Positions 1 through 15,621 of a stretch of 43,882 nucleotides of DNA are shown one piece after another. A model generated the notes under the pieces. That model was not told where the DNA came from and did no database searches. It saw only the letters and a program-made list of their open reading frames with translations. The stretch comes from Candidatus Rokuibacteriota bacterium (lineage in GTDB: Bacteria > Methylomirabilota > Methylomirabilia > Rokubacteriales > CSP1-6): assembly GCA_003220315.1 (NCBI GenBank), contig QHSA01000151.1, positions 1 to 43,882 on the forward strand, read 5' to 3'. Within the stretch, counting starts at the first letter, position 1, and each line of letters opens with the position of its first letter. A program made the position numbers and the translations under genes.

Positions 1-713
1 CCGAGGATGATGACGGCGAACGCCTTGATGGACGGCAGCGTGCCCGTGTAGGGGCTGAAGGGGTTGACGATGCCGTAGAGCGAGCCGGCGAGGGCGCCGA
101 GCGCGGCGCCGATCCCGAAGGTCAGCATGTCCATGCGCTCGACGCGGATGCCCATGAGCATCGCGGCGACCCGGTTCTGGCTCGTCGCGCGCACGTCCCG
201 CCCGAGGCCCGTCCGATGGAGCACCACCCAGAGCCCGGCGATGATCGTCCAGGCCAGCACGAGCAGGACGATGAAGTCGTAGCGCAGCGTGATGAGCCCG
301 AGGTCCACGACCTCGGTCGCATACGGCGTCTTGATCTGGACGTGCTCGCGGAAGCGCGGCACGAACACCCGCGCGAGCGCGTTCTGGAGGATCAGGATCA
401 GCGCGATCGAGAAGAAGACCTCGTTGATCTTCTCGCCGCCCCGGAGCCACCGAAAGCCGAAGCGCTCGATGACGACGCCGACCAGGCCGACCGCGGCCAT
501 CGAGAGGAAGATGGCCAGGTAGGGGCTGAGCCCGGCCGAGTGCGCGAGGATGAAGGTCACGAACGCGCCGAGCATCATCAGCTCGCCGTGGGCGAAGTTG
601 ACCACCTTCATCACGCCGAAGATGAGCGTGATGCCCGTCGCCAGCAGCATGTAGACGCTGCCGGTGACGAGCCCCCAGGTGAGGACGCGCGCGAGGGTGC
701 CGAGATCCGGCGT
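1..713 (-). CDS. livH: Branched-chain amino-acid ABC transporter permease, LivH type (partial, C-terminus off window)
   Basis: Inner-membrane permease of a HAAT-family importer for branched-chain amino acids or similar small compounds. The reading frame gives a LivH N-terminal third to two thirds: a first membrane segment (GLVTGSVYMLLATG), then LIFGVMKVVNFAHGE, a family hallmark, then further hydrophobic helices and the loop GIRVERMDMLTFGIG. The gene leaves the window at base 1. It lies directly after the substrate-binding protein gene, so the two form a transport operon. Odd point: no ATG, GTG or TTG lies between the upstream in-frame stop (764-762) and the first helix. I set the start at an ACG (713-711), giving (M)PDLGTLARVLTW; this start is a guess. 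Family assignment is firm, substrate is not. Confidence 0.9.
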
Positions 714-730
714 GGGAGCCGCCTTCGGCC

Positions 731-2023
731 CTAGGGCTGCTTGTACCGGGCCTCGGCGAGCTCACCCGGCCAGACGATCGTCGGCCGCAGCTCCTTGACC
801 TTGTCGTCCCAGGCCATCTGCTGCACGAAGAGGACGAACGCAGCCTCGCGGTACTTGGGGTCGAAGCGGATCTTGCCGCCCTGCATCGCCAGCACCATCT
901 GGTCCATCTCGACCTTGCCGAGCGCCTCGATGATCTTCTTCCGGTCGAGGCTCCCCGCCCGCTCGATCGCCCCGGCCGCGATGTGGACGACGTCGTACGC
1001 CGACACGCCGAGGAGGCCGGGGAGCGTGCCGTACCGGTCCTGGTAGGCCTTGCGGAACGCGGCCCACTTTGCGAAGCCGGCCCCTTTCGGGATCGCGTAC
1101 GTGCTGTAGAGGCTGAGGATCGTCGTGCCGTGTCCGACCTTCCCGAGGTCCTTGTAGTAGAGCGGGTCGTCGGCGCACGCGCACACCGGTCCGAGGTGCG
1201 TCTTCTTGAGGTCGAAGCCCACGTCCACGACGGCCTGCTGCACGGCGGCCACGGTCTCGCCGCGGAAGCCCTGCGGCACGAGAACGTCGGGACCGAGCCC
1301 CTTGATCTTCGTCAGCAGCGAGCGATAGTCCGTCTCGCCCACCCTGAAGCGCTCGGCGGCGACCGCCTCGATCGGCAGGGTCGCGTCCTTCACCCGTTCC
1401 GCGAAGCCACGGTAGAGCTCGGCGCCGAACGGTGAGTCCTGGTACATCCAGGCCACGCGGAGCGCGCGGCGCCCGGCCATCAGCGGCTTGAGCTCCCTGA
1501 CGAGGAAGTCGGCGATCGTCGCTCCCTGCATCAGGCCCGTCGCCTGGTAGTGGAAGACCATGGACTTCGTCGGGTCGGGCCCCATCTCCGGCGTGCGCGT
1601 GAAGAGGGGTGTGGACGGCGTCGGGATGTACGGCACGCCGTGCTCGCGGATCTGCGGCAGCGCCGCCATGCCGAAGGCGCTGCCGAGCCCGCCGAAGACC
1701 ACCTGCACCTTGTCCTCGACGAGAAGCCGCGTCACGGCGGACACCGCGCCCTCGCGCGAGGTCTGGTCGTCGCCGATCACGAGCTGGAGCCCGAGCTTCG
1801 CGTTCGCCTCCCTCACCAGGACGCCGCCCGCGGCGTTGACCTCGTCCACGGCGAGCGCGGCGGCGCGCCGCTGGTCCTCGCCGGTCGAGGCCGCCGGGCC
1901 CGTCATCGAGGTGAGCAGGCCGAGCGTGATCGCGGTCTGGGCGGCGGCCGGGGCCGCGGCGCCGAGCGCCGCGAAGACGAGCGCTCCCACGGCGAGAATC
2001 GCTCCAAGGAAAGCTCTCTTCAT
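731..2023 (-). CDS. Branched-chain amino-acid-type ABC transporter substrate-binding protein
   Basis: Periplasmic binding protein (Peripla_BP_6 / LivJ type, 430 residues) that delivers ligand to the LivH-like permease encoded just downstream. It opens with a signal peptide, MKRAFLGAILAVGALVFAAL, ending near APAAAQ, followed by ITLGLLTSMTGPAAS, the usual family start in which the first strand leads into the ligand loop. The chosen ATG has GGGAGAGG 8 nt upstream; a longer frame starting at 2107 lacks a ribosome site and would bury the signal peptide. A paired-Cys stretch (CACADD, about residue 290) may form a disulphide. Substrates of this family include leucine, amides, urea and aromatic acids, so the real ligand is open. 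Confidence 0.93.
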   Translation of the reverse strand: MKRAFLGAILAVGALVFAALGAAAPAAAQTAITLGLLTSMTGPAASTGEDQRRAAALAVDEVNAAGGVLVREANAKLGLQLVIGDDQTSREGAVSAVTRLLVEDKVQVVFGGLGSAFGMAALPQIREHGVPYIPTPSTPLFTRTPEMGPDPTKSMVFHYQATGLMQGATIADFLVRELKPLMAGRRALRVAWMYQDSPFGAELYRGFAERVKDATLPIEAVAAERFRVGETDYRSLLTKIKGLGPDVLVPQGFRGETVAAVQQAVVDVGFDLKKTHLGPVCACADDPLYYKDLGKVGHGTTILSLYSTYAIPKGAGFAKWAAFRKAYQDRYGTLPGLLGVSAYDVVHIAAGAIERAGSLDRKKIIEALGKVEMDQMVLAMQGGKIRFDPKYREAAFVLFVQQMAWDDKVKELRPTIVWPGELAEARYKQP

Positions 2024-2128
2024 GAGGTGACCTCTCCCTGCGTGGTGCCGGGAGGATAACCGAAACGCCGACGTTCTGCTCGGATGGCTTAATTTCCGGA
2101 ACTCCAAACGTCGTCACGTCGGGATTGC

Positions 2129-2157
2129 TTGACACGTGGAGTCGTGCAGTGTATCTC
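2129..2157 (+). promoter_or_regulatory. Sigma-70-like promoter of small secreted protein copy 1
   Basis: TTGACA (2129-2134), a 17-nt spacer and TATCTC (2152-2157). Only 6 nt separate the -10 hexamer from the ATG at 2164, so transcription should start at or next to the start codon (leaderless mRNA). No Shine-Dalgarno sequence is present. Confidence 0.65.
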
Positions 2158-2163
2158 GTCGCC

Positions 2164-2463
2164 ATGTCGTTCCGGCGTCGCCTGACCCTGCTCGTGGTAG
2201 GCGCGATCGCGTTGCTGGCGCCCCTGGCCCATGCCAGTCCACCCGATCCCGCGTGGATCGCCGGCTTCTGGGACAACGCTGACTACGACGACGTGGTGCT
2301 GCTGGTGACTTCCGCAGTCGGCACCGCTGACTCTCGCCCACCTTACGTCACGGTGTCCGCCCCGGTCGTCATCGCCTCTGTCTCCTCGCCAGACGAGAGC
2401 CCCGTCTCCGGCCGCCCACTCTCGTCGTGGAACACACGCGCCCCTCCGACCGCCTCCGCCTGA
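2164..2463 (+). CDS. Small secreted protein, SPPDP/TRAPPT family, copy 1
   Basis: A 99-residue protein that I cannot assign to a named family. Residues 1-24 form a clear signal peptide (MSFRRR, hydrophobic core, then LAHA), with predicted cleavage before Ser25. The mature part starts SPPDPAWIAGFWDNADYDD, continues VVLLVTS, passes through a variable Ser/Pro/Val-rich middle and ends PLSSWNTRAPPTASA. The same start and end motifs occur in two more proteins in this window (4169-4459 and 10357-10650), all with Ser at position 25. The mature N-terminus is acidic and aromatic, and there is no Cys in this copy. The start codon sits 6 nt after a -10 hexamer. Function unknown; presumably exported to the periplasm or outside. 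Confidence 0.85.
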   Translation: MSFRRRLTLLVVGAIALLAPLAHASPPDPAWIAGFWDNADYDDVVLLVTSAVGTADSRPPYVTVSAPVVIASVSSPDESPVSGRPLSSWNTRAPPTASA

Positions 2464-2658
2464 GATAGCCGCTCCCTGAGCCTCGCGTCCGCTTCGTCTG
2501 CGCGGAGCGGAGCCGCGCGAGCCGACTCGAGTCCGCCCGAGGGACGCGTGTCGGCGTCAGTGGGCGCGTCGTGACTCCAGATCTCGAGGAAAGGAGGGCG
2601 CGCGGACGAGGAATGTGACGGTCCAGAGAATGCCGCTTGCTCAAGAGGAGACAGAGCG

Positions 2659-4035
2659 ATGACAATGCAGGCAGCGACCAAGTTGCTCCCCCGATCCACA
2701 CTTCCATGGGTGCTCGCCGGTGTGCTATGTGCCGGTGCGCTATCCGCCGGTGCGGCTCTGGCTGGTGAGCCTGGGCGGAATGGGGGAGCTATCACGCTTC
2801 TCGGGACCATCGCGGTCCCGACGAGTCTCAAGCCCCTCCATGGCTGGGATATCAGCTGGCTCGACGCGGACACCCAACTTTTGTATGTCGCCGACCGTTC
2901 CAACCGCAGCGTCGACGTTTTCAACGCGAGCACCAATACATTCGTCAGGGCGATCACGGGCGGGTCAACGCCGTTCGCCGGCGTCGCCTTCAACCCTGCG
3001 ACCGGCGCGGCGGACAACGGGCGATCCGGCCCCAACGGCGTCGTCGTGAGCGGACATTGGCTTTTTGTGACCGACGCCAACAGCAGGGTGGTCAGCATCG
3101 ACCTCAGGACCGATCAGATTGTTCCCGGCGGCGATGTCTCCACTGGTGGAGCGGACGCCCTGCGGGCCGATGAGTTGGCTTACGATCCGGACCATGGGGT
3201 TCTTCTCGTCGCCAACAACGCCGACGACCCGCCGTTCGTGACCTTGATCAAGGTCAATCGAACCAACGGGCAGCTGACCGTTGGCGCCAGAATCGCGTTC
3301 GACCCGGCGAACAATGGCTTCGATGCGACCAATGGTGCGGAACAACCGCAATACCATCGGGGCAAGTTCTATCTGTCCATTCCCGAAGTGGACTGCCCCC
3401 GGAAGATTGGCAACCCGCCCGTGGACAACCCTGTCTGCGGGGGCTCCTTCGCCGACGGAGGCGTCGTGACAATCGACCCGAACAGTTCGGGCAAGATCGA
3501 GAAGCTGTCTCATGTGAAGTTCTGCCAGCCGGCTGGACTCACGGTCGGTCCGAACGACGATTTGCTCATTGGTTGCAGTCAGGCCTTTGACACGGCAGGT
3601 AACGCGTGGACCGCGTCCGATCCCCACACCGCGGCGCCGATCTCGGTGATCATGGACGCCAACACGGGCGCCATCGACACGATAGTCGCCGGAGTCTCGG
3701 GAAACGACGAAGTCTGGTTCAACCGCGGCGACGGACGCTACTACCTCGCCGCCCGCAACCAACCAGGAGGCCCGGTGGTCGGCGTCATCGACGCGGAGAG
3801 CCAGAGCCTTGTCCAGGTGGTTCCGACCCTCAACGTCGGCGGCAAGAACTGCACCCTCAACCCGCTCAACTGTAGTGCCGCGTTCCCCGCGGGAACCGCG
3901 CACTCGCTCGCAGTGGATCCACACAGCAACCACGTGTTGGTGCCCCTGGCGGCCAATAACGTCTTCCCGCAGTGCTTGAACGGTTGTGTCGCCGTGTACG
4001 GGACGCCGAGAGGGGAGCACGACGACGAGGAGTGA
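2659..4035 (+). CDS. Secreted beta-propeller-like protein of unknown function
   Basis: 458 residues. A signal peptide (residues about 1-36, LPWVLAGVLCAGALSAGAALAG) leads into repeated strand-rich segments of the YVTN/NHL propeller kind: LLYVADRSNRSVDVFNAST, WLFVTDANSRVVSIDLRTD, GVLLVANNADDPP, GRYYLAARNQPGG and HSNHVLVPLAANN, each a blade-like 'x(V)AxNxxxxVxVID' unit. Several Cys pairs (DCPRK with PVCGG; NCTLNPLNC; QCLNGC) suggest disulphides and fit an exported protein. The C-terminus is acidic (EHDDEE). The start is supported by GAGGAG 8 nt upstream. It lies between two copies of the SPPDP small secreted family on the same strand. No catalytic motif is visible; a binding or scaffold role is possible. 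Confidence 0.85.
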   Translation: MTMQAATKLLPRSTLPWVLAGVLCAGALSAGAALAGEPGRNGGAITLLGTIAVPTSLKPLHGWDISWLDADTQLLYVADRSNRSVDVFNASTNTFVRAITGGSTPFAGVAFNPATGAADNGRSGPNGVVVSGHWLFVTDANSRVVSIDLRTDQIVPGGDVSTGGADALRADELAYDPDHGVLLVANNADDPPFVTLIKVNRTNGQLTVGARIAFDPANNGFDATNGAEQPQYHRGKFYLSIPEVDCPRKIGNPPVDNPVCGGSFADGGVVTIDPNSSGKIEKLSHVKFCQPAGLTVGPNDDLLIGCSQAFDTAGNAWTASDPHTAAPISVIMDANTGAIDTIVAGVSGNDEVWFNRGDGRYYLAARNQPGGPVVGVIDAESQSLVQVVPTLNVGGKNCTLNPLNCSAAFPAGTAHSLAVDPHSNHVLVPLAANNVFPQCLNGCVAVYGTPRGEHDDEE

Positions 4036-4068
4036 CGTCGTTGGGCCTCTGATTTTTTCCAGTCGGCG

Positions 4069-4093
4069 AAACGGCGGCGCCTGGCCGCCGTTT
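4069..4093 (+). terminator. Hairpin after the propeller gene
   Basis: A perfect 10-bp inverted repeat (AAACGGCGGC / GCCGCCGTTT) with a 5-nt loop, 33 nt after the stop codon. The arm ends in TTT but no longer U tract follows, so this is a plausible but weak intrinsic terminator separating the propeller gene from copy 2 of the small secreted family. Confidence 0.5.
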
Positions 4094-4155
4094 CCCGTCT
4101 GGACCCGACGCCGATGCATGTGGCTCCGGAGCTGGCGGCGTCAAGCGGGGCAGAG

Positions 4156-4161
4156 TATTGT
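4156..4161 (+). promoter_or_regulatory. Putative -10 element of small secreted protein copy 2
   Basis: TATTGT ends 7 nt before the ATG at 4169, the same placement as in the other two copies. No good -35 hexamer stands 16-18 nt upstream (TGGCGG), so the call rests on positional agreement with the paralogues. Confidence 0.45.
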
Positions 4162-4168
4162 AGGGGCG

Positions 4169-4459
4169 ATGCGGCGTCGGGTTTCCCTGGCGATGTTGCT
4201 CTTCGCAGCGGTGGTCGTGCTGCCGGCGCTGGCTCACGCGAGCCCCCCAGACCCGTCGTGGGTTGCCGGCTTCTGGGATGACGCCGACTACGACGACGTC
4301 GTCCTCGCCGTCACCGGAATGACCGCCGCTCCGCATTACACGCCGGACGCCGTGCCGAGCCCTTCTCCCTGTGTTGTCGGCGTCACTCGGCCGCGCCCCA
4401 GGATCGTTCACCCGGCTCCACTCGCCTCGTTCCCTACGCGCGCTCCCCCGACCGTCTAG
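4169..4459 (+). CDS. Small secreted protein, SPPDP/TRAPPT family, copy 2
   Basis: 96 residues, paralogue of the proteins at 2164-2463 and 10357-10650. The signal peptide is again 24 residues (MRRRVSLAM, hydrophobic core, LAHA), followed by SPPDPSWVAGFWDDADYDD and VVLAVTG. The middle is Pro-rich, with a single Cys (PSPCVVGV), and the protein ends in FPTRAPPTV. The spacing from the start codon to the mature Ser25 is identical in all three copies although the intervening residues differ, which supports both the start and the cleavage site. AGGGG lies only 2 nt from the ATG, too close for a normal ribosome site. Function unknown. Confidence 0.83.
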   Translation: MRRRVSLAMLLFAAVVVLPALAHASPPDPSWVAGFWDDADYDDVVLAVTGMTAAPHYTPDAVPSPSPCVVGVTRPRPRIVHPAPLASFPTRAPPTV

Positions 4460-4569
4460 AGTGCTGCCGCGTTCGTGGCTGCGGATGACGTCCGCGGCTC
4501 ACGGCGTCTCCAGTGAATCGCCGCAGCGTGCAACTGCGTGGGTGTCAGTTCGCAAATGGGAGGCGATCA

Positions 4570-4794
4570 ATGATTGGGCCCCAGGACCTCTGGGTGGCGC
4601 TGGGTCTTATGGTCTTTTTCTTCGGGGCGAAGAAGCTGCCCGAGTTGTCTCGATCGCTTGGCCAGGCGCTCGCCCAGTTCAAGAAGGGGCTCGCGGAGTC
4701 CAACGATGAGGCGCGAGCGTCCGACGCGGTGACCCCAGCCCCGAAGGCTGCCGCCGCACACGACCCATCCCAACGACCAGACGGCTCCGTGTGA
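4570..4794 (+). CDS. tatA: Twin-arginine translocase subunit TatA/TatE
   Basis: A 74-residue component of the Tat pore, which exports folded proteins across the inner membrane. It shows the family plan: a short periplasmic N-terminus, one membrane helix (LWVALGLMVFFFGAKKLPEL), the FGxKKLPEL hinge, an amphipathic helix (SRSLGQALAQFKKGL) and a polar tail. Usual length for TatA. GGGAGG lies 7 nt upstream of the ATG. No tatB or tatC is nearby. The DUF1460 protein at 10758-11684 begins with an RR-containing leader and could be a client, but that is conjecture. Confidence 0.92.
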   Translation: MIGPQDLWVALGLMVFFFGAKKLPELSRSLGQALAQFKKGLAESNDEARASDAVTPAPKAAAAHDPSQRPDGSV

Positions 4795-4822
4795 TGCTGC
4801 GAGCCGCGGCCCTGGCATCGAA

Positions 4823-5206
4823 ATGAAACCGTGGGCCATTCTGGCGTCGACCCTCCTCGTCGGCCTCGCCCTCGGCGTCGGCGGCACCATCCTCTTGCCG
4901 CCCGCGATCGAGCCGTATCTTGCGTCGGCACTCCGCGCGCCTCGGCGCCCGGTCGAGGGCCAGGTCATCGGGAAGCAACGGGAGGAGGGCCACGTCCTCT
5001 TGAAGGTGCAAACCGACGACGCACTCATCCTGGCGACATTCACGAAGAAGGTGCCGGAGATCGACCTGCTGGTTGAACAGGGCGACTCGATCATCCTCGC
5101 GTTGCCGAACACCGGTCCGTTCGTGGACGATCCCGTCATCGAACGGGTGACCCATCCCCGCTCGAGTCAACCGTCGGACAGTGGGCGCCCCGCTCCCCGC
5201 AAGTGA
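4823..5206 (+). CDS. Small membrane-anchored protein of unknown function
   Basis: 127 residues, not recognised. One N-terminal hydrophobic helix (AILASTLLVGLALGVGGTIL, residues 5-24), probably an uncleaved anchor, is followed by a soluble part of about 75 residues rich in beta-type stretches (GHVLLKVQTDDALILATF, LLVEQGDSIILAL) and a polar Ser/Pro/Arg tail. The pattern resembles an OB-like or SH3-like small barrel outside the membrane, but there is no sequence motif to prove it. It lies 28 nt after tatA and 31 nt before the MFS carrier on the same strand, so co-transcription is likely. Confidence 0.7.
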   Translation: MKPWAILASTLLVGLALGVGGTILLPPAIEPYLASALRAPRRPVEGQVIGKQREEGHVLLKVQTDDALILATFTKKVPEIDLLVEQGDSIILALPNTGPFVDDPVIERVTHPRSSQPSDSGRPAPRK

Positions 5207-5237
5207 GAAGCGCCGAACACTGGAGAGGAGCTGAGAC

Positions 5238-6560
5238 ATGGGAACCGCAGCCAAGCCGGCCGCAGAAAGTCGGGCGTCCGCCAGCGCCCGGTGGGTGCAA
5301 CTGGTGCTCGGCATTGTCGGGATGGTGGCGATCGCCAACCTCCAGTACGGCTGGACGCTCTTCGTCAATCCGATCGATAGCAGGTTTCACTGGGGGAAGG
5401 CGGCAATCCAAGTCGCCTTCACCGTGTTCGTGTTGGCCGAGACGTGGCTCGTGCCGTTCGAGGGCTACCTCGTCGATCGCTTCGGCCCGCGATGGCTGGT
5501 CGCCGCCGGAGGCATCCTCGTCGGCCTCGCCTGGTCGGTCAACGCCAACGCGAGCTCGCTCCTCACGCTGTACGCGGGCAGCCTGATCGGCGGCGTTGGC
5601 GCCGGCATCGTCTATGGCACGAGCGTAGGCAACGCGCTGAAGTGGTTCCCGGAGCACCGAGGGCTGGCCGCCGGTCTCACGGCGGCCGCGTTTGGCGCGG
5701 GCTCAGCGCTCACGATTGTGCCGATCGCGAACGTCATCAATACCCGAGGCTATGAGACCGCCTTCATCTATTTCGGGCTCGCGCAAGGTCTCGTCGTCGT
5801 CCTGTGCGCGCTGCTGCTCCGCGCTCCCCAGACGGGCGACGTGCCCGACGTCACGACACCCAAGGTTCAGCAATCGGTCGGAGATTTCACGCCGCTGGAG
5901 ATGCTGAAGGCTCCGGTGTTCTGGCTCTTGTACGCGATGATGACGATGCTGGCCATGGGCGGCCTGATGGCGACCGCCCAACTGGGTCCGATTGCCGCGG
6001 ACTACAAGGTTGCCCAGGTCCCAGTGTCCCTGCTTGGGATTACGATGGCTGCCCTTCCGTTCGCGCTCTCCTTGGACCGCATTCTCAACGGGCTGACGCG
6101 GCCATTCTTTGGTTGGGTCTCGGATCACATCGGCCGTGAAAACACGATGCTCATCGCCTTCGGCTTGGAGGGTGTCGGGATCTTGCTCCTCATCACCTTT
6201 GCGCACATCCCGAGCCTGTTCGTCGTGTTCTCGGGTCTGGTCTTCTTCGCCTGGGGTGAGATCTACAGCCTGTTCCCCGCCGTGTGTGGCGACCTCTTTG
6301 GCCGGAAGTTCGCCACGGCAAACTACGGTCTGCTGTACACGGCGAAGGGCACGGCGTCGTTGCTCGTCCCGCTGGGGAACGTCCTCAGGGCCGCCACGGG
6401 GAGCTGGATGCCCATCTTCGTCGCGGCGATCGCGCTCGACTGGATCGGCGCGCTCCTGGCGTTTTTCGTCTTGAAGCCGCTGCGCATCGGCTGGGTGTCC
6501 GCTCACGCCGGTGTTTCTCCCCGAGCGGTTGGGCCGACGGCGACGCCGATCCGACATTGA
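5238..6560 (+). CDS. MFS transporter, oxalate:formate antiporter (OxlT)-like
   Basis: 440 residues with about 12 membrane helices. The N-terminal helix region (VAIANLQYGWTLFVNPI) and the loop GYLVDRFGPRWLVAAGG fit the OxlT-like branch of the major facilitator superfamily, as does the second half with LNGLTRPFFGWVSDHIGREN, the duplicated loop motif. Proteins of this branch exchange or take up small carboxylates (oxalate, formate, monocarboxylates); the real substrate cannot be read here and no oxalate catabolism gene is adjacent. GGAGAGGAG stands upstream of the ATG. It is the last gene of a plus-strand group and converges with the methyltransferase gene at 6606. Confidence 0.88.
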   Translation: MGTAAKPAAESRASASARWVQLVLGIVGMVAIANLQYGWTLFVNPIDSRFHWGKAAIQVAFTVFVLAETWLVPFEGYLVDRFGPRWLVAAGGILVGLAWSVNANASSLLTLYAGSLIGGVGAGIVYGTSVGNALKWFPEHRGLAAGLTAAAFGAGSALTIVPIANVINTRGYETAFIYFGLAQGLVVVLCALLLRAPQTGDVPDVTTPKVQQSVGDFTPLEMLKAPVFWLLYAMMTMLAMGGLMATAQLGPIAADYKVAQVPVSLLGITMAALPFALSLDRILNGLTRPFFGWVSDHIGRENTMLIAFGLEGVGILLLITFAHIPSLFVVFSGLVFFAWGEIYSLFPAVCGDLFGRKFATANYGLLYTAKGTASLLVPLGNVLRAATGSWMPIFVAAIALDWIGALLAFFVLKPLRIGWVSAHAGVSPRAVGPTATPIRH

Positions 6561-6605
6561 CGGAGACTCAGCCGCGGGGCGAGCGCTCCGAGACGTTGGC
6601 CGCCG

Positions 6606-7286
6606 TTATCGTGGCGATCGCCCCACCCCTGTATGACTATCGGTCACGGATCGTCTCCTGGCTTCGACGTCGGCCGTCGCAGAAGGAGCTTTGAGAGACG
6701 AGACGACCAGCTCGTACCGGCTCGGCGTCCGGTCGAGTCGACTCACCGGGATCTTGCAGTGGTCGTACAGCGCCAGCAGAGTCCCCTCCGTGTAGCGGAA
6801 GACGTGAACGCGGCCGTCGGCCGTCCGCGTGAGAGCACGGGCGAGCCAGCGGACGGAGCGGCGTCGGGACTGGGAGAGGTTGCGGACGGGCTCGGCGATC
6901 ACGAGGAGACGTCGCGCGGCCGCATACAGGCGTGGAAGCAACGTGTCCGCGATGTCGTGGAACTGATACAAACTCGCCTGCATGATCACGGTGTCGGCCG
7001 TGGGGACCGGATCGCCCGAGCGCACGTCGAAGGCGCGGACGTCGACGCCGTGACGGCGCGCCAGCTTCAGCATCGCGCCCGAGTGCTCGAGGCCGATATA
7101 CGATTTCAGGAGCCCTCGCGCCTCGAGATGCCGGTGGAGCGCGAGGTCACCGCAGCAGAGTTCCAGCACGTCGCCCGGTGCCCGGATGACGTCGGCGATC
7201 AACGTATAGCGCGCAGCGTAATCCGGCCCGTACCCGATGCGCGTCGTGAGCCGGTAGAGCGTGGGGGAGTGGTAGATCGTCACCAT
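6606..7286 (-). CDS. SAM-dependent methyltransferase, class I
   Basis: 226 residues. The Rossmann-type SAM site is visible as DVLELCCGDLALHRHLE (motif I, residues about 38-54), then YIGLEHSGAMLKLARRHG with the acidic residue of motif II, then TADTVIMQASLYQFHD (motif IV region). The double Cys in motif I (LCCGD) is unusual but occurs in some small methyltransferases. I chose the ATG at 7286 because the conserved fold starts right after it; further upstream the frame shows no protein-like sequence. It follows the GT39 and epimerase genes on the same strand, so it may methylate a glycan or lipid product; the substrate is unknown. Confidence 0.82.
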   Translation of the reverse strand: MVTIYHSPTLYRLTTRIGYGPDYAARYTLIADVIRAPGDVLELCCGDLALHRHLEARGLLKSYIGLEHSGAMLKLARRHGVDVRAFDVRSGDPVPTADTVIMQASLYQFHDIADTLLPRLYAAARRLLVIAEPVRNLSQSRRRSVRWLARALTRTADGRVHVFRYTEGTLLALYDHCKIPVSRLDRTPSRYELVVSSLKAPSATADVEARRRSVTDSHTGVGRSPR

Positions 7287-7417
7287 GGCCAGAGCGGGCG
7301 CGCCTGCATGGTGCGCCGCATTGTAGCGTATCGGGAACACTGATGGGCGAGCGCGAGCTCCCGCGTGGGACGCGCGGACCCCGATCACCGACGTCGAGAA
7401 CTCGAGGTCGTGTTCTG

Positions 7418-7510
7418 CTACACGATCTCGTCGTCCGCGGCCTCGAGGAGCTTCTGTAAGATGAAGACGCAGTTGATCTCGCCCGGCATCGACTGTGACG
7501 GCCGGTCCAC
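7418..7510 (-). CDS. Possible 30-residue small ORF overlapping the GT39 stop codon
   Basis: A GTG overlaps the last base of the GT39 stop codon and opens a short frame with (M)VDRPSQSMPGEINCVFI at its start and LQKLLEAADDEIV at its end. Codon third positions are almost all G or C, as in real genes here, and the peptide looks natural (amphipathic helix at the end). It could be a true small protein, or the surviving C-terminus of a decayed gene. I have no homologue in mind. Confidence 0.3.
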   Translation of the reverse strand: MDRPSQSMPGEINCVFILQKLLEAADDEIV

Positions 7511-9273
7511 TACGAGCCCCCCGATTCCTTGTCCGGTGGACGTCGAGAAGGGTCTTCGCCATGCCGGAACGCGAGTGGGGGCGGCCGGTTTGTCACCAGC
7601 ATGGAGCGTGGTCCCGCGGCGAGGAGGATGGCGCCGGGAATGTCGAGGCCGCGGTCACCGACGACGAAGACGCGGCCGTTCGAGGCCCACAGGCGCTCGA
7701 ACCCCTCGCGTGTCAGGAAAAGACCCGACGCGTCGCCCCTCCTGTAGCCGAAGAGGAGGTCGCCGCGCGCACTATCGAGCATTCGGGTCGGGTAGCCCGT
7801 GTAGAGCGATACGCCGCAGTAGTCCTCGTAGGTCCCCCAGACGACGAGCTCCGCCGTCGGCTCCCAGAGCGCGCGGATGATCGGCGCGAGATCACGCTGC
7901 GAGCGATCCGGAGCTACCAGGCGATGGCCGAGCTCGGCGAACCACACGAGCCCGACCGCCCCGAGCACCCAGATCGTGAATGCCAGACGCGCGCGAGAGA
8001 GGCGCGACGCGAGCAGGGCCGCGCCTCCGAAGAGAAGGATGAACACTGCGAAGGGGCGGATGAGCCTCAGGCATCGCTCGACCACGGCGAACGACACGTC
8101 TGGATGAGCGACGAGGTAGTCGCGATAGACACCGTCGAGCAGCGTGATGAGCGAGGTCAGGAACTCCGCGGTGCTCTCCCGGGAAGCAACGAGCCACGGA
8201 ACGAGCGCGACACCGATGCCGAGCACGATCCACGCGGCGACGCGAGCGCCGGCCGGCGCGGGTCGGGCGTCGATCGCGCGTCGCCAGTACGCTGCGACGA
8301 TCACGGCGAGGGCCGGGAAGGCGGGCAACGCGTAATACTCAAGCCGCGACGCGCTCGTGGTGAAGAACGCCAGCACCCACACCGACCAAGCGAGCGGGAG
8401 CGCGAGACCCCTCCTGAGATCGGGTGAAGCGATCGCGGCGGGGAGGAAGAGCGACCACGGGAGGAGCCAGAGGGCGGTCGCGAGCCAGAAGCCGCCGATC
8501 GAAAGCGGCGTGTAGTCGACCGGCTCTCGTGCGTTGAAGAACCGGAGGACGTGCTCGTTCACGAAATAGAAGCGCATGAAAGCAGGGTCGCGCGCGGCGA
8601 GGAGGAGGTGCCAGGGGACAAGGACGAGCGAAACGATCGCCGCTCCAAGGAGCGGGCGGAGGTCGTGCGGAAGGCGCTTCCGGCCGAAGAGCAGCCAGCA
8701 GGTGCTGGCGGTCCCGAGCGGCAAGACAATGCCCACGAGGCCCTTGGTGAGTCCGGCGAGCGAGAGACCACTCCAGAACAAGAGGGGGCCAAGCAGGCCG
8801 CGGCGTCCTCGCACGGTGAGCACGAGGCCGAGGAACGAAACGGCAAGCCAGAGACCGAACAGGGTGTCCGTGAAAAGGGACCGGCCGTAAAGGAGGGGGC
8901 CTGCTGAAGTCGCCAGGACGAGCGCCGCGAGCGGTGCCGCCGAGGCGCCGAGAAGCTCGTGAGCGAGGAAGAACGTGACCGCCACCGTGGCGATGTACGA
9001 CACCGCGCTTGGCAGGCGCGACGCCATCTCGTTCTGGCCGAACAGGCGGTAGGAAGCAGCCACACTCCAGTAGAGCAACGGCGGCTTCTCATAGTAGCGG
9101 ACGCCGTTCAAGCGCGGCTGCACCCAGTCGCCCCTCTCGAGCATCTCGCGCGCGATCAATGCGTACCGGGCCTCGGCAGGGCTTGAGAGCGGCCGCTCGC
9201 CGAGTTGGTAAAGGGCAAGAACGACCGACAGGGCCAGGCAGCCGGCCAGATGCAGAGCCGTCCGGTCACTCAT
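7510..9273 (-). CDS. Glycosyltransferase family 39 protein, ArnT/PMT_2-like
   Basis: 587-residue integral membrane glycosyltransferase that moves a sugar from a polyprenyl-phosphate donor to a lipid or protein acceptor on the periplasmic side. Hallmarks: a first helix (LALSVVLALYQLG), then SSPAEARYALIAREMLERGDW (the acidic EAR motif that in ArnT/PMT proteins holds the catalytic Asp/Glu region), PRLNGVRYYEKPPLLYW, and about 11-12 membrane helices followed by a periplasmic C-terminal part of about 150 residues. ArnT family members have this size. Its start overlaps the stop of the epimerase gene by one base (TGATG), so the two are translationally coupled. Acceptor and sugar are not known; a pentose derived from UDP-glucuronate is a reasonable idea given the neighbour. 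Confidence 0.88.
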   Translation of the reverse strand: MSDRTALHLAGCLALSVVLALYQLGERPLSSPAEARYALIAREMLERGDWVQPRLNGVRYYEKPPLLYWSVAASYRLFGQNEMASRLPSAVSYIATVAVTFFLAHELLGASAAPLAALVLATSAGPLLYGRSLFTDTLFGLWLAVSFLGLVLTVRGRRGLLGPLLFWSGLSLAGLTKGLVGIVLPLGTASTCWLLFGRKRLPHDLRPLLGAAIVSLVLVPWHLLLAARDPAFMRFYFVNEHVLRFFNAREPVDYTPLSIGGFWLATALWLLPWSLFLPAAIASPDLRRGLALPLAWSVWVLAFFTTSASRLEYYALPAFPALAVIVAAYWRRAIDARPAPAGARVAAWIVLGIGVALVPWLVASRESTAEFLTSLITLLDGVYRDYLVAHPDVSFAVVERCLRLIRPFAVFILLFGGAALLASRLSRARLAFTIWVLGAVGLVWFAELGHRLVAPDRSQRDLAPIIRALWEPTAELVVWGTYEDYCGVSLYTGYPTRMLDSARGDLLFGYRRGDASGLFLTREGFERLWASNGRVFVVGDRGLDIPGAILLAAGPRSMLVTNRPPPLAFRHGEDPSRRPPDKESGGS

Positions 9274-10238
9274 CAGCCAGAACGCGCTTCGCCTCGGAAG
9301 AAGGCGATCGTCCGCCCGAGCCCCTCGTCGAGAGACACCTTCGGTGCAACCCCGAGGATGACACGCATCCGCCGGATGTCTGGGACTCGCCGTGGGATGT
9401 CCTCGTAGCTCGACCCGTACACGTCTTCCTGGCGGACGTTTTGGATCTCCGACCTCGATCCGGAGATCGCGATGATGCGCTCGGCCAACGTTCGGATCGA
9501 CACCTCCTCGTCGGTGCCGACATTGAACGTCCCGCCGACCGCCTGCGGGCTGAGTCCCGCTGCGACCGTCGCGAGGATCGCGTCGCTCACATACGTGAAA
9601 CAGCGCGTCTGGCGGCCGTCGCCGATCACCGTGAGCGGCCGGTCGCGCAGCGCCTGCCCGAGGAGGATCGTGACCACGCGCCCGATGTCGATCGCGTCAA
9701 GCCGCGGACCGTACACGTTGAAGTAGCGGAGCACCGTGACGGGGAGACCCATCTTCGCGAAGGCGAAGCAGAAGTGCTCGCCGACCGCCTTTGAGGTTGA
9801 GTAGCACCAGCGGTCGGTGGCGGTCGATCCGAGGATGCGGTCATCCTCCTCCCTCCAGGGGATCCTGGGGTTCCGGCCGTAGACCTCTGATGTGGAGGAG
9901 AAGACCAGGCGCTTACCGTGCCTGAAGGCGAGCCTCAGCACATTCTGCGTCCCGTTGATGTTGACGTTCAGCACTTCGTGCGGGTCGCCGACGTAGTGCT
10001 CGACGCCGACGACCGCGGCGAGGTGGTAGACGAGGTCGACCCGGGCGATGAGCCCGTCGAGGATCGTCTCGTTGAAGAGGCTGTCGTGGACGAAGTGGAG
10101 CGCGTGATGCCCGAGCAAGTGGCGGATTTTGAGGGTCGGTCCGCGGTCGAGGATGAACACCTCGTCGCCGCGCTCGAGGAACGCGTCGGCAAGGTGCGAG
10201 CCGAGGAAACCAGCGCCTCCGGTGATCAGAACCTTCAT
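9273..10238 (-). CDS. NAD-dependent sugar epimerase/dehydratase (extended SDR; UDP-glucuronate decarboxylase-like)
   Basis: 321 residues. Motifs of extended short-chain dehydrogenases: MKVLITGGAGFLGSHLAD (GxxGxxG NAD site), DLVYHLAAVVGVEHYVGDP, FSSTSEVYG with the catalytic Ser/Thr, YSTSKAVGEHFC with the catalytic YxxxK, and LRYFNVYGPRL. The VYHLAAVVG and LRYFNVYGPR stretches are close to UDP-xylose synthases and UDP-glucose 4-epimerases. AGGAG lies 7 nt upstream of the ATG. It is the first gene of the minus-strand group epimerase, GT39, methyltransferase, which suggests making and transferring a nucleotide-sugar-derived residue to the cell envelope. The exact reaction is not decidable from the sequence. 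Confidence 0.88.
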   Translation of the reverse strand: MKVLITGGAGFLGSHLADAFLERGDEVFILDRGPTLKIRHLLGHHALHFVHDSLFNETILDGLIARVDLVYHLAAVVGVEHYVGDPHEVLNVNINGTQNVLRLAFRHGKRLVFSSTSEVYGRNPRIPWREEDDRILGSTATDRWCYSTSKAVGEHFCFAFAKMGLPVTVLRYFNVYGPRLDAIDIGRVVTILLGQALRDRPLTVIGDGRQTRCFTYVSDAILATVAAGLSPQAVGGTFNVGTDEEVSIRTLAERIIAISGSRSEIQNVRQEDVYGSSYEDIPRRVPDIRRMRVILGVAPKVSLDEGLGRTIAFFRGEARSG

Positions 10239-10356
10239 AAAGTCTCCTGGAGCTTCGGGGCTTCGTCCGAATGACGCACCGACACGACGCCGCAAGGCGC
10301 ACGGACTCCGCGCCCTTGCTCGCGGGCGATCCCGCGGCGACGTCAGCTGGCGGGAC

Positions 10357-10650
10357 TTAGGTGGTTGGAGGGGCGCGCGTCTGCCACGACGAGAGCGCGC
10401 GAGCCGGCGGCGGACTCTCGACGGGCAGGGACAGCACGGCGATGACAACCGCGACGGATTCCGGTTCGTAAGATGGCCGAGGGTCCGCGATACTCACCCC
10501 AGACGTCGCCAGCAGCACGACGTCGTCATAGTCGCCATCGTCCCAGAAACCGGCGATCCACGCGGGATCGGGCGGACTGGCGTATGCCAGGGGCCCTGCC
10601 GAGGCGAGCGCGCCGATGAGGAGGAGAACGAGGAGACGCCGAACGCTCAC
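10357..10650 (-). CDS. Small secreted protein, SPPDP/TRAPPT family, copy 3
   Basis: 97 residues from a GTG start. The signal peptide runs (M)SVRRLLVLLLIGALASAG then PLAYA; the mature part begins SPPDPAWIAGFWDDGDYDD, then VVLLATSG, and ends ALSSWQTRAPPTT. An ATG four codons upstream (10662) is possible, but the GTG is better: it puts Ser25 at exactly the same position as in copies 1 and 2, and it lies 7 nt after a TATGCG -10-like hexamer that itself contains the ATG. The protein is closest to copy 1 (shared VVIA and LSSWxTRAPPT). It stands alone between the epimerase and DUF1460 genes. Function unknown. Confidence 0.83.
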   Translation of the reverse strand: MSVRRLLVLLLIGALASAGPLAYASPPDPAWIAGFWDDGDYDDVVLLATSGVSIADPRPSYEPESVAVVIAVLSLPVESPPPARALSSWQTRAPPTT

Positions 10651-10657
10651 GGGTGGA

Positions 10658-10687
10658 CGCATACCATTGGGCTGCTGCGTGTGTCAA
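10658..10687 (-). promoter_or_regulatory. Sigma-70-like promoter of small secreted protein copy 3
   Basis: Read on the minus strand: TTGACA (10687-10682), 18-nt spacer, TATGCG (10663-10658), 7 nt, then the GTG start at 10650. The -35 region GCTTGACAC is shared with copy 1. Predicted leaderless; no Shine-Dalgarno sequence. Confidence 0.55.
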
Positions 10688-10757
10688 GCGATTGGGGTTG
10701 TTGCGGGAGACGACTCCGCTCGCGATCTCGTCGACGACCGCGTCGACTCACGCGTCG

Positions 10758-11684
10758 CTACGCCACCTCCAGCGGGCGTGCCACCATGATGCCCGTGTGC
10801 GTCGGCACGCGCGCGAGGTACGTCGCGAGCTCCTCGTCGAGGATGACGGCTTTCTGGGTGGTCGACGCGTGCAGCAATCTCACGGTCCCGCCCTCGTCCC
10901 TGTAGCAGAACCCCGCGTGCGCGCAATCGAGACCGTCGATCGTCGTGGTCACCCCGACGATGTCGCCCGTCATCAAGCGCGGCTGGGCGGCCGCCACCTT
11001 CTCTCTCGGCACATACTGTAGCTCACGGGCGTTGATCTCGGCCTCGACGCGCGCGATCTTCCGGACCAGGTCGGGATTCGCCGTGAGCTGTCGGTAGGCC
11101 TCGGGATGCGTGCTCATGAAGTTGACCCGCTTGATGAAGCGCGTGGCTCCCGGAAGCTCGCGCGTGGTCAGACGGACGACTCCCTTGTGCGCGTTGTCGA
11201 AGAACCAGTCGCTGAGGTAGTGCAGCCGCGACACATAGTCGGTGAGCCGGCCGCCCCGGTACCGGGTGAAGGTGACCTCCGCCAGCAGCGCCTCGGATGT
11301 GCGCCCACCGCGCCTCAGCATTCGCGCGAAGGCGAGCGAGCTTTCCAGGAACGTGACGCAGTCCAGGCCGCGGAGGTTGACCGAGCAGACCTCGCGATCC
11401 TCGTAGAGCTCGAGCGTCGCGGCGACGTACGGCGTCTGCCGGAGGGCCATGCCGATGGCGCCGATGCGTTCGCCGATCGGCAGCTCGCGCCAGGCGCGCT
11501 CGCGCCCCAGCACCAACAACTGCTCGAACGTCTCCTGTCCTGCGAAGACGTTCGGATCTCGGTCGCGCGCCGGCACGGGATCCGGGCGCGAGATCGCGAG
11601 GACCCCGGCCCCCACCAGGGCCTGCCCCATCAGCGTCACGAACGCTCGCCGTTCCAGCGTCGAGCCACGCATCGCTCTTAGCAT
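10758..11684 (-). CDS. DUF1460 / N-acetylmuramoyl-L-alanine amidase-like exported protein
   Basis: 308 residues of the PF07313-type family, cysteine hydrolases of NlpC/P60-like fold linked to cell-wall peptide cleavage. The catalytic Cys is in GLDCVTFLESS (Cys109). The matching His region is GLDCAHAGFCYRDEG, followed by VRLLHAST. The N-terminus (STLERRAFVTLMGQALVGAG) has two arginines before a hydrophobic stretch and could be a Tat or Sec leader. The start is uncertain: ATG at 11684 or at 11672. It is the last gene after NagZ (21 nt gap) in a minus-strand operon; the pairing of an amidase-like enzyme, NagZ and a sodium symporter points to reuse of wall fragments. Confidence 0.86.
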   Translation of the reverse strand: MLRAMRGSTLERRAFVTLMGQALVGAGVLAISRPDPVPARDRDPNVFAGQETFEQLLVLGRERAWRELPIGERIGAIGMALRQTPYVAATLELYEDREVCSVNLRGLDCVTFLESSLAFARMLRRGGRTSEALLAEVTFTRYRGGRLTDYVSRLHYLSDWFFDNAHKGVVRLTTRELPGATRFIKRVNFMSTHPEAYRQLTANPDLVRKIARVEAEINARELQYVPREKVAAAQPRLMTGDIVGVTTTIDGLDCAHAGFCYRDEGGTVRLLHASTTQKAVILDEELATYLARVPTHTGIMVARPLEVA

Positions 11685-11705
11685 CGCACGGTGGAGGCGG
11701 CCGGC

Positions 11706-12773
11706 TCAACCGGGTGCGGGAAAGGACCACCGTGCGCGCTGAGCCACTTCCTCCGCGAGGGCGCGATGCTCGGCGCAGCCGATCACCGAAACGTCGGGCC
11801 GTGGTCCGGCGGTCGCGATGAGCCGGCGGACTGCCTGGCGGCGCTGCACGGCCGGAGCGAGGTCGAGCACGCCCCGGTCGATGTCTCGGCCAATCGCCGC
11901 CGCCGCCTCGTGTCGCGCCTCGGCACTGCGGCAGACGAGCGCAAGATCGCCGCCGGCGGCCAGGAACCGTCGAGCCGCGCCAGCGACGCCCCAGGTGCTG
12001 GCGACCGCGGCCATCTCGAGGTCGTCACTGAGGACGAGGCCGGAGAAGCCGAGGCGCCGCCGGAGCAGGCCGCCGATGACCTCGGCGGAGAGCGACGCCG
12101 GGAGGGCCGGGTCGAGAACGCGGTACCGCACGTGGGCGACCATCACCGCCGGGCAGCCGGCTCCGAGGGCGGCGCGGAATGGAACGAGATCCCAGCGCTC
12201 CAGCTCGTCGATGGTCGCGTCGACGTCCGGCAAGGCGAGATGCGAGTCGACCGAGGTGCGTCCGTGCCCCGGGAAGTGCTTGGCGACGGGAACCAGCCCT
12301 TCGGAGAGCAGGGCCTCGACGAACGCGACGCCGCACGCGGCGATGATATCGGGGGCCGTCCCAAACGCGCGGTCATCGATCACCGTGTTCGCCGGATTGA
12401 GCAGGCAGTCGAGCACCGGCGCCAGCCCGGAGTCGAACCCGGCGGCGCGGAGTTCGCGAGCCATTGCCCTCGCGACAGCGACCGCCAGGTGAGGATCGCC
12501 CGAGCGTCCAACCGCTGCCGCAGGCGGAAACCGGGTGAAGGGAGGGGGCAGGCGGTGAACCCGTCCGCCTTCGTGATCCACGAGGACGAGGACATCGGGG
12601 CCGAGCTTCCGCGCGGCCGCCGTGAGCGCGAGCACCGTCTCGAGGTTGGGGCAGTTCCGCGCAAACAGGACGACGCCGCCCAGCCCGGCGTGCTCCGCCA
12701 GGGCCACGAGATCGTCGGGAACGCGCGTGCCCTCGAAGCCGACGGCCAGGGCGCGTCCGGGCCCCATCGGCAC
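11706..12773 (-). CDS. nagZ: Beta-N-acetylhexosaminidase, GH3 family (NagZ)
   Basis: 355 residues, single-domain glycoside hydrolase 3, which removes N-acetylglucosamine from muropeptides. Seen: VLVLVDHEGGRVHRL (residues 61-75), LAPVLDCLLNPAN, and VAKHFPGHGRTSVDSHLALP (residues 164-183), the NagZ signature with the flexible loop carrying the Asp176/His178 pair that acts as acid/base. GLVLSDDLEMAAV carries the nucleophile Asp. Size matches cytosolic NagZ, and no signal peptide is visible. The start is GTG at 12773 or ATG at 12767; GAGGTG stands upstream. Only 6 nt separate it from the end of the symporter gene, so the two are one operon. Confidence 0.93.
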   Translation of the reverse strand: MPMGPGRALAVGFEGTRVPDDLVALAEHAGLGGVVLFARNCPNLETVLALTAAARKLGPDVLVLVDHEGGRVHRLPPPFTRFPPAAAVGRSGDPHLAVAVARAMARELRAAGFDSGLAPVLDCLLNPANTVIDDRAFGTAPDIIAACGVAFVEALLSEGLVPVAKHFPGHGRTSVDSHLALPDVDATIDELERWDLVPFRAALGAGCPAVMVAHVRYRVLDPALPASLSAEVIGGLLRRRLGFSGLVLSDDLEMAAVASTWGVAGAARRFLAAGGDLALVCRSAEARHEAAAAIGRDIDRGVLDLAPAVQRRQAVRRLIATAGPRPDVSVIGCAEHRALAEEVAQRARWSFPAPG

Positions 12774-12779
12774 GGGCCG

Positions 12780-14552
12780 TCACCTCTTCGGTCCTGGCCG
12801 AAGGTCACTCGGCACAGTCTCTTCGACGAGCGATGCACGCAGGGCGAGCGGAACACCCTCGGCGGTCCGAGCCTCCTCGGCGTGACGGGCCACGCCCTTC
12901 AGTACCTGGTCCGGGGTGCGGAAGAGGACGCCGACACAAAAGACGACGAGCGCGCCGATCATGGGCCACCAGGTGAACGAGACTTCGGGAATCGCGAGGG
13001 GCTGCTGAAACGTCCGGTGGATGCCGAACAAGGGGGCCGCCGTGTTCAGGAGGGTGATGTTCAGCTTGCCAGCGACAACAGTCGCGAGGAGCCCCGCCGG
13101 GATGGCGACGATGTTTCCGGCGTCGGAACCGCGCCGTTGGGTGAGCATGCCGATGAGGAAGACACCGAGCATGGGGCCGAGGATGAATCCGGCGATTCCG
13201 AGCACGACCGGAATGATTCTCAAATCCGGGTTCGTCACCTTCGCATAGGCGAATCCGCCGGCGATGACGATCATGAGCACGGCGAAGAGGACCGTGAACC
13301 AGCGCGCGGCCTTGACGTAGTGCGCCTCGCTCTTGCCCGGAACCCACCGGAGGTACCAGTCGTTCGTGGCGGCGGTCGCCAGAGCGTTGAGCGCCGCGGA
13401 AAAGGAGCCCATGGCGGTGGCGAAGATGCCCGCCAGCACAAGACCGCGGACGCCCACGGGCATGACGTTGAGGATATACGAGCCAAAGACGTCCGCAGCG
13501 GCCGTGGGCTGGAAGGTGGGGTCCTTCTGGTAGTAGGCGACGAGCAGGATTCCGATGAAGACGAAGGCGGAGGCGATCGGCAGGTCCAGGAAGGCGGCCG
13601 TCACCAGGCTGCGGCGCGCCCTCTGGTGGGTCTCGGCTGTCAGCATCCGCTGAACCATGTCCTGATCGGTGCCGAAGGCGGCCATGTTGCCGAGTGTCGC
13701 CCCGATGAGCGCAGAGAAGAGGGTGTAGTCGCTCGCGAGAATCAGCTTGATGGAGTCCCACAGGCCCATCGCCGCAAGCTGGTGGCTCTCCTTCCACTTC
13801 GCGACGATGCTCGGTTCGAACCCGTGGAGGAAGTAGCCTTCGTGGGTGGTCAGCTGCGGGACGGCCCGGATGACCTCGTGGAGTCCGCCGACGTGATTGA
13901 GCAGCGTGCCAATGGCAATCAGCGCGCCGCCGAACATCAGGCAGGCCTGAATCAGGTCCGTCCAGATGACGGCCTTGATTCCGCCGAGCGCCGTATAGAA
14001 GCAGGTGACGAGGGTGAGGGCGATGATCGCGATGAGATAGGGACCGACCGTCGTGACCGCCTGCTGGCTGAACTGCACCTGTCCGCCCGAGACGAACATG
14101 CGGTACGCCAGCACCATCACGAGCGAGGGGATGAAGAGCCGCGTTCCCGACGCCAGCGTCCGCATGAACAGGAAGAGGGCGGAGACGTAGCCCTTGGTCC
14201 ACGGCCCGAAGCGAACGCCCAGGTAATCGTAGACCGTGTACACCTTGAAGGTGTAGTAGGGCTTGAGGAAGACATTGCCGACGATGACGCGCCCGATGAT
14301 GAGGCCCAGCACGAGCTGCACGTAGGCGAAGCTCTTGTTGGTGTAGCCCTCGACGGGCGCGCCGAGGAAGGTCGCCGCGCTGGTTTCCGCCGCGATGATG
14401 GACGCCATCGCGGCCCACCACGGCACGCGACGCCCTCCGAGCGCATAGTCATTCAGGCTCTTCTCCCGCCGCCCCGCATACAGCCCGATGGCGGTGATGG
14501 CGACGAAATAGAAGAGGATGATGAGTCCGTCGACCAGAAGCCGCCCGTCCGT
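12780..14552 (-). CDS. Sodium:solute symporter (SSS family), possible muropeptide or amino-sugar carrier
   Basis: About 590 residues with some 13-14 membrane helices. The family entry signature is plain: DGLIILFYFVAITAIGLYAG (helix 1), LNDYALGGRRVPWWAAMAS, then AAETSAATFLGAPVEGYTN, and later TALGGIKAVIWTDLIQ, which matches the SSS consensus. Odd: helix 1 is in frame but no ATG, GTG or TTG precedes it after the in-frame stop (14576-14574). I place the start at ACG (14552), which has GGGGAG 6 nt upstream and gives (M)DGRLLVDGLIILF; a CTG at 14537 is the alternative. The GTG at 14426 would delete helix 1. Operon context with NagZ suggests a wall-derived substrate. Confidence 0.85.
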   Translation of the reverse strand, partial: TDGRLLVDGLIILFYFVAITAIGLYAGRREKSLNDYALGGRRVPWWAAMASIIAAETSAATFLGAPVEGYTNKSFAYVQLVLGLIIGRVIVGNVFLKPYYTFKVYTVYDYLGVRFGPWTKGYVSALFLFMRTLASGTRLFIPSLVMVLAYRMFVSGGQVQFSQQAVTTVGPYLIAIIALTLVTCFYTALGGIKAVIWTDLIQACLMFGGALIAIGTLLNHVGGLHEVIRAVPQLTTHEGYFLHGFEPSIVAKWKESHQLAAMGLWDSIKLILASDYTLFSALIGATLGNMAAFGTDQDMVQRMLTAETHQRARRSLVTAAFLDLPIASAFVFIGILLVAYYQKDPTFQPTAAADVFGSYILNVMPVGVRGLVLAGIFATAMGSFSAALNALATAATNDWYLRWVPGKSEAHYVKAARWFTVLFAVLMIVIAGGFAYAKVTNPDLRIIPVVLGIAGFILGPMLGVFLIGMLTQRRGSDAGNIVAIPAGLLATVVAGKLNITLLNTAAPLFGIHRTFQQPLAIPEVSFTWWPMIGALVVFCVGVLFRTPDQVLKGVARHAEEARTAEGVPLALRASLVEETVPSDLRPGPKR

Positions 14553-14573
14553 GGCTCTCTCCCCTCGTGCGAC

Positions 14574-14852: not shown

Positions 14853-15108
14853 GTCGCGTTCCCTCGAATCGATCGTCCGCTAAGACGCGCCGCCGAGTCA
14901 AACTTCCCGTGGGCAGCTTTCGCCTACGCCGATCTCCGCGCGGTCGCGAACCGCGGCTATCTCCTGGAGACGGGGGCGGTTATCCTGGGGGCCATGCGGC
15001 GCTCGCCCTCGGCGCCCGGATCGAGATCGACTTTGTCGCGCGGCGTTCCTGAGCCTGGTGGAAGGATGGCTGGCGCCGCGCGCAGCGACGGATAAAGGTG
15101 GCGAACGG

Positions 15109-15483: not shown

Positions 15484-15488
15484 CCACC

Positions 15489-15530: not shown

Positions 15531-15591
15531 CAGGACTGCCAAGCCGTCACTCGACCTTGCCGAAAGCCCTTCCCTTCAAGGGGCTTGCGTA

Positions 15592-15606: not shown

Positions 15607-15621
15607 CCACTATGACGGCCC

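Follow-up and report, generated by a model that had tools for sequence, protein, structure and literature searches.

A multi-copy family of small exported proteins in Candidatus Rokuibacteriota with the features of translation-arrest leader peptides

The DNA analysed here is a 43,882-nucleotide stretch of a Candidatus Rokuibacteriota genome (contig QHSA01000151.1, assembly GCA_003220315.1), referred to in its full length as the window. It encodes three small proteins with signal sequences, here called leaders 1 to 3, each located upstream of another gene on the same strand. A reading made from the sequence alone (the sequence-only reading) had described them as three homologous proteins of 96-99 residues with a shared start and a TRAPPT end. 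This description was borne out, and we confirmed the open reading frames (ORFs) at 2164-2463 (+, 99 aa), 4169-4459 (+, 96 aa) and 10357-10650 (-, 97 aa from a GTG). Full-length alignment of the three proteins revealed 37 invariant columns; the other two are 49% and 65% identical to the first. They share an n-region and hydrophobic signal sequence, the element ASPPDPxWxAGFWDxxDYDDVVL and the C-terminal TRAPPT.

Leader 1 comprises a signal peptide (residues 1-24), the SPPDPAWIAGFWDNADYDDVVL element, a spacer and RAPP at residues 92-95. Its promoter (2129-2157, +) was recognized by sequence reading together with a family-wide pattern. It consists of a -35 box (TTGACA, 2129-2134), a 17-nt spacer and a -10 box (TATCTC, 2152-2157) that ends 6 nt upstream of the ATG at 2164, and a leaderless transcript is predicted. 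The predicted stall codons CGC GCC CCT CCG (2437-2448, +) include CCTCC (2443-2447), which is an anti-Shine-Dalgarno sequence. Target gene 1 (2659-4035, +) encodes an exported NHL/beta-propeller-like protein and has the ribosome-binding site GAGGAG at 2645-2650. Leader 2 has the same architecture, with RAPP at residues 91-94, and a -10-like TATTGT ends 7 nt upstream of its ATG. Its predicted stall codons, CGC GCT CCC CCG (4439-4450, +), contain CTCC. The gene that follows (target gene 2, 4570-4794, +; ribosome-binding site GGGAGG, 4558-4563) encodes TatA, a twin-arginine translocase subunit (Pfam TatA_B_E, E = 1.7e-12). This tatA is solitary, as no adjacent tatB or tatC was found among the ORFs examined.

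Leader 3, on the minus strand, again shows the architecture of leader 1 (RAPP at residues 92-95), and its predicted stall codons CGC GCC CCT CCA (10366-10377, -) contain CCTCC. The promoter (10658-10687, -), recognized in the same way as that of leader 1, is composed of TTGACA (10687-10682), an 18-nt spacer and TATGCG (10663-10658), with the -10 box 7 nt upstream of the GTG. Because this predicted promoter puts the transcript start near the GTG (10650), an ATG at 10662 is the less likely start codon. Target gene 3 (9273-10238, -; ribosome-binding site AGGAG, 10248-10244) encodes an NAD-dependent epimerase/dehydratase of the sugar nucleotide type (Pfam Epimerase, E = 1.2e-51). No Rfam match, and hence no known structured RNA leader such as a riboswitch, was obtained for positions 1-16000 of the window.

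A profile built from the three window proteins detected six copies in the window's own genome, namely the three in the window and three on the contigs C277, C65 and C284 (E = 4.8e-23, 5.8e-15 and 6.2e-7). Since the same profile retrieved about 140 matches in related genomes, the likeness of the three proteins is not a matter of chance. Carriers were found among 35 of the 95 genomes of the phylum, all within one order of Candidatus Rokuibacteriota (34 in the family of the window genome, one in another family), and a single genome has as many as 14 copies. None of the 35 phylum genomes outside that order gave a match. The search and the copy count thus confirmed the suggestion of the sequence-only reading that the three proteins belong to a multi-copy genomic family. 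Its statement that no named family shows this pattern also holds: there was no family match in Pfam, NCBIfam, PDB or Rfam, and the window proteins had no Pfam match even at E <= 10. When 84,980 species' genomes were scanned with a narrower family alignment, matches were confined to metagenome-assembled genomes (MAGs) of Candidatus Rokuibacteriota from soil, plus one contig labelled Acidobacteria (L165, QHVJ01000332.1, bin AA35). A transfer is improbable in the latter case: across 7,595 bp the contig shares 99.8% identity with a contig from Rokubacteria (L164), and it was most likely mis-binned in the public MAG. The family therefore looks to be restricted to Rokubacteria and repeated 1-14 times per genome. 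For the following analyses we extracted 132 distinct members, 125 of them complete ORFs.

An R-x-P-P motif (RxPP) is present near the C-terminus of 121 of the 125 complete ORFs, most commonly two residues before the stop, and the remaining four appear truncated or frameshifted. The closing TRAPPT, present in all three window proteins, is only one form of this family-wide R-[A/S/G]-P-P motif, with x being A in 94 members, S in 15, G in 9, and C, D and P in one each. Among 69 diverse members, R, P and P occupied the only invariant columns; these representatives were picked among motif-bearing members, so that 121/125 is the unbiased figure. Motifs of this type (RAPP) have been shown elsewhere to arrest ribosomes (PMC12992588, PMC10987492, PMC10951233). 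Mutagenesis of ApdA and ApdP revealed an irreplaceable Arg, full activity with Gly at x and partial activity with Ser, Asp or Pro (PMC12992588), and the x residues of our family fall in this permissive set, cysteine excepted. RAPP and RGPP were both absent from 522 neighbouring proteins, where 5.9 and 4.2 occurrences were expected, and a similar rarity has been reported for bacterial proteomes at large (PMC12992588). A hydrophobic signal and an A-x-A-like cleavage site were recognized by eye throughout the family. In the most divergent members (L113, L122 and L108) SPPDPxW is nearly lost, while the signal sequence and RAPP or RGPP are kept, which suggests that the N-terminal element can be replaced.

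We then asked how selection is distributed along the protein, using 30 close pairs. The ratio of nonsynonymous to synonymous substitution (dN/dS) was 0.04 for RxPP, 0.14 for the SPPDPxW..WDDxDYDD element, 0.41 for the signal peptide, 0.46 for the middle and 1.06 for the tail after RxPP. In this tail synonymous change was lowered as well (pS 0.168 versus about 0.3 elsewhere, p = 0.002). The middle, described as freely varying by the sequence-only reading, does vary in sequence, but its length hardly changes: in 109 of 114 members, 52-54 residues separate the WD(D) element from the Arg of RxPP, which identifies the middle as a fixed-length spacer. Diversifying substitution, for which this region had been a candidate, was not found, as the ratio there indicates mild purifying selection. 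The ribosome exit tunnel holds about 30-40 residues. With a spacing of about 53, the conserved element would therefore be located just outside the ribosome, at the translocon, when a ribosome has stalled at RxPP. AlphaFold predicted no confident mature fold (mean pLDDT, the predicted local distance difference test score, 58.8) and helices only at residues 3-23 (the signal) and 40-54. The view that the proteins are not enzymes is supported.

These constraints bear on the possibility that the family encodes a genuine secreted small protein (a signal, adhesin or wall element) which acts through its mature SPPDPxWxxGxWDDxDYDD part, RxPP being a secondary autoregulatory or folding feature. The strong purifying selection on the N-terminal element, which signal peptidase cleavage would set free, agrees with such a role. 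However, RxPP is the most constrained part, the tail behind it evolves neutrally, the spacer length is fixed and the prediction gives no confident mature fold. Together with the genomic position described below, this makes a secreted effector quite improbable in our judgement.

Next we analysed promoters and operon position. Of 119 members, 68 showed a -35/-10 pattern (shuffled sequences gave 6.9), and its -10 box usually ended 5-11 nt upstream of the start codon. Shine-Dalgarno-like sites preceded 23 of 119 leaders, compared with 15 by chance, versus 65 of 89 downstream genes, compared with 18. Because the -10 box ends close to the start codon and few leaders have a Shine-Dalgarno site, the leader mRNAs are predicted to be leaderless. 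Of 126 downstream genes, 114 were codirectional with the leader (118 once missed genes had been corrected by hand), whereas among upstream genes this held for 70 of 119 (Fisher p = 4e-11). Leader and next gene were commonly separated by about 50-250 nt. Downstream genes are diverse, yet envelope-centred: they encode exported propeller proteins (20), TatA (15), an uncharacterised exported family (9), PMT-type glycosyltransferases (7), asparagine synthases of polysaccharide type (5), GT21 glycosyltransferases (4) and RND efflux proteins (at least 4), besides acyltransferases, sugar-nucleotide enzymes, sigma-54 activators and others. TatA was the only protein-localization target seen, and secA, secDF and yidC were absent from the downstream clusters and representatives examined.

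Several individual arrangements illustrate this diversity. Single tatA genes recur downstream of a distinct leader clade (VPDPTWIGGLYDGADGDE type, for example L130, L121 and L126), and the window genome carries two such leader-tatA pairs (C261 and C284). Divergent leader pairs, separated by a few hundred bases and each heading its own operon, occur at L061, L075 and L083; the L061 pair faces a PMT glycosyltransferase in one direction and an asparagine synthase in the other. At L147 and L051 the leader is flanked on both sides by a full-length RND efflux pump gene of about 1026 codons and is codirectional with both. In an SPPDQSW clade (L145, L049, L052, L046 and L048 from genomes G007 and G028) RxPP is intact and no clear codirectional gene lies close downstream; the target of these members may be fast-evolving.

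On the leader tree, which is poorly resolved (100 columns), the class of the target gene changed 25 times, versus 57.2 times (50-63) with shuffled labels. Leader lineages thus tend to keep their target gene even between genera, which is what a cis-acting regulator should show. This position upstream of codirectional genes, retained lineage by lineage, is a further point against a secreted effector. It also bears on a toxin/antitoxin, bacteriocin-like or mobile selfish module, a notion to which the multiple copies, small size, own promoter and patchy distribution lend themselves. But no common partner gene was found, copies stay beside one and the same target gene in different genera, and they are surrounded by housekeeping and envelope genes. 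We therefore regard such a module, for which no search for terminal repeats was made, as hardly credible.

The codons of the motif itself deviate from those of neighbouring genes. The first Pro codon of RxPP was CCT in 37% of cases versus 5.7% in neighbour genes, and the Ala codon of RAPP was GCT in 42% versus 5.4% (13% before Pro); both preferences create CTCC. This tetranucleotide was found in 73 of 120 RxPP motifs, versus 13.3 expected from codon usage or 23.9 from codon context, and in 41 of 69 versus 13.5 after clustering at 60% identity. A general preference for T at the wobble position was rejected as the cause, since T is hardly or not at all enriched in the Arg and second Pro codons. 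In the ASPPD codons of these ORFs, CTCC occurred in 13 of 74 cases (9.8 expected), which is no significant excess. In partition-function folding, pairing of the xPP codons peaked at -15 to -6 of the next start codon, with summed probabilities of 0.61 and 0.76 per 5 nt that fell to 0.16 and 0.25 once the four motif codons were recoded synonymously. No other bin had a comparable excess. The folding thus predicts base pairing between the RxPP codons and the downstream Shine-Dalgarno sequence.

Based on the motif, the constraint pattern, the spacing, the promoter pattern, the operon position, the target association, the anti-Shine-Dalgarno codon bias and the predicted pairing, we consider it probable that the small proteins are translation-arrest leader peptides, that is, nascent-chain sensors for the downstream gene. 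The sequence-only reading had favoured a displayed or processed peptide such as a signal, toxin or adhesin. The leader anatomy (most constrained RxPP, neutral tail, fixed spacer, leaderless operon head and last codons predicted to pair with the next Shine-Dalgarno sequence) points instead to a regulatory arrest peptide that would act during its own synthesis. Ribosome stalling, release of the stall through export, the sensing of a ligand or force and an ON state when stalled are inferred, as follows. Translation of a leaderless mRNA would begin at the leader's start codon, and the nascent chain with its Sec-type signal sequence would enter the export channel. The ribosome could then stall at the C-terminal RxPP, its P and A sites occupied by the two Pro codons, as in ApdA, ApdP and CruR. 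At this point, about 53 residues would separate WDDxDYDD from the peptidyl-transferase centre, which would place this element just beyond the ribosome, at the translocon, with the signal peptide inserted. The presence of a Sec-type signal suggests a stall that is relieved by the pull of export on the chain, so that pulling would decide on release, possibly modulated by a binder of the acidic element (a ligand or a translocon interaction). Once the ribosome passes RxPP, the CTCC or CCTCC codons would pair with the Shine-Dalgarno sequence of the next gene and switch it off. While it stalls, these codons would be buried in the ribosome, leaving the site free and the next gene translated.

Some observations weigh against this interpretation. 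About eight members, several of them from the SPPDQSW clade, lack a clear codirectional downstream gene, and the conservation of the N-terminal element exceeds what a simple force sensor of the SecM kind would require. Member by member, CTCC did not correlate significantly with GGAG in the downstream site (p = 0.26). In addition, shuffled sequence folds as well as the three intergenic RNAs of the window do (z 0.22, 0.35 and -0.55). Since the window loci singly show no unusual structure, sequestration rests on the statistics of the family. The main rival shares the RAPP leader but replaces sequestration with Rho-dependent termination or attenuation, in which the stalled ribosome blocks Rho and the operon is transcribed. 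This is how CruR, the best-studied ligand-sensing RAPP leader, works, with an intergenic region of 162 nt (PMC9426467, PMC9973294), and both the intergenic distances of the family and the ordinary structure of the window RNAs are consistent with it. However, it leaves the CTCC bias of the stall codons and the pairing peak at -15 to -6 unexplained, and we rate it as unlikely.

Arrest leaders that sequester the next Shine-Dalgarno sequence, as we propose, would join a known kind of regulator. RAPP and RGPP arrest peptides are located near the C-terminus of small exported proteins encoded upstream of diverse genes (PMC12992588, PMC10987492, PMC10951233). Like ApdA, ApdP, the 'RQH' family (PMC10987492) and a set from S. 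lividans (PMC12992588), our proteins are small and carry an N-terminal localization signal and RAPP or RGPP near the stop; the codirectional downstream gene and the permissive residues at x are also shared. In contrast to the described peptides, which are mostly unrelated single-locus upstream ORFs (uORFs) of secA, secDF, yidC or other genes, they form one homologous family with 1-14 copies per genome, a conserved N-terminal element at a fixed distance, a predicted leaderless start and stall codons that would double as anti-Shine-Dalgarno sequence. The ligand-sensing cases CruR (DUF2946, Bordetella pertussis; PMC9426467) and CutF (Rhodobacter capsulatus; PMC9973294) are likewise exported nascent sensors upstream of their target operon, with a conserved sensing motif at a fixed distance from a C-terminal Pro-rich stall motif. 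In CruR, the distance from CxxC to RAPP is 45 residues and kept within 1-2 residues (PMC9426467), and the model for CutF involves a hairpin over the Shine-Dalgarno sequence of the next gene (PMC9973294); a comparable pairing is predicted here for the family as a whole, but it is not evident at the three window loci taken one by one. Our family differs from both in its acidic/aromatic element (W..G.WDDxDYDD), its 53-residue spacing and its targets, which are not mainly copper genes. The three window proteins contain no CxxC and have no Pfam match to DUF2946 (E <= 10). The secretion monitors SecM, VemP and MifM also combine a Sec signal with a C-terminal arrest motif, and SecM regulates its downstream gene by Shine-Dalgarno exposure, but the targets here are not secA, secDF or yidC and the SecM motif FxxxxWIxxxxGIRAGP is absent. 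The RAPP-peptide literature that we searched mentions neither Rokubacteria or Methylomirabilota nor tatA, and stall codons serving as anti-Shine-Dalgarno sequence together with RAPP were not found in it. Thus, the kind of element, a RAPP arrest leader, is already known, while the multi-copy homologous family with predicted anti-Shine-Dalgarno stall codons is new.

RAPP arrest peptides were recognized as widespread in 2024-2025, mostly as isolated, unrelated uORFs. If our interpretation is true, nascent-chain arrest can serve across one genome as a regulatory module that is general and open to duplication, the family having been duplicated and placed before as many as 14 different genes for envelope or export functions in a genome. 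We are nearly evenly divided, leaning slightly towards doubt, on a further step: that these leaders form a distributed regulon, in which all members of one family, through their common acidic/aromatic element, would respond to a single envelope or export signal and act in cis on as many as 14 separate operons in a genome, with the stall codons as anti-Shine-Dalgarno lock and the supply of TatA under arrest-peptide control. Such a regulon, if true, would correspond at the peptide level to a class of riboswitches that recurs many times within a genome. About 130 natural variants are available for finding what the N-terminal element senses, and the signature of stall codons and a locked ribosome-binding site is a computable marker that could reveal other such systems. 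For Candidatus Rokuibacteriota, the leaders would provide a first regulatory handle on an uncultured soil phylum.

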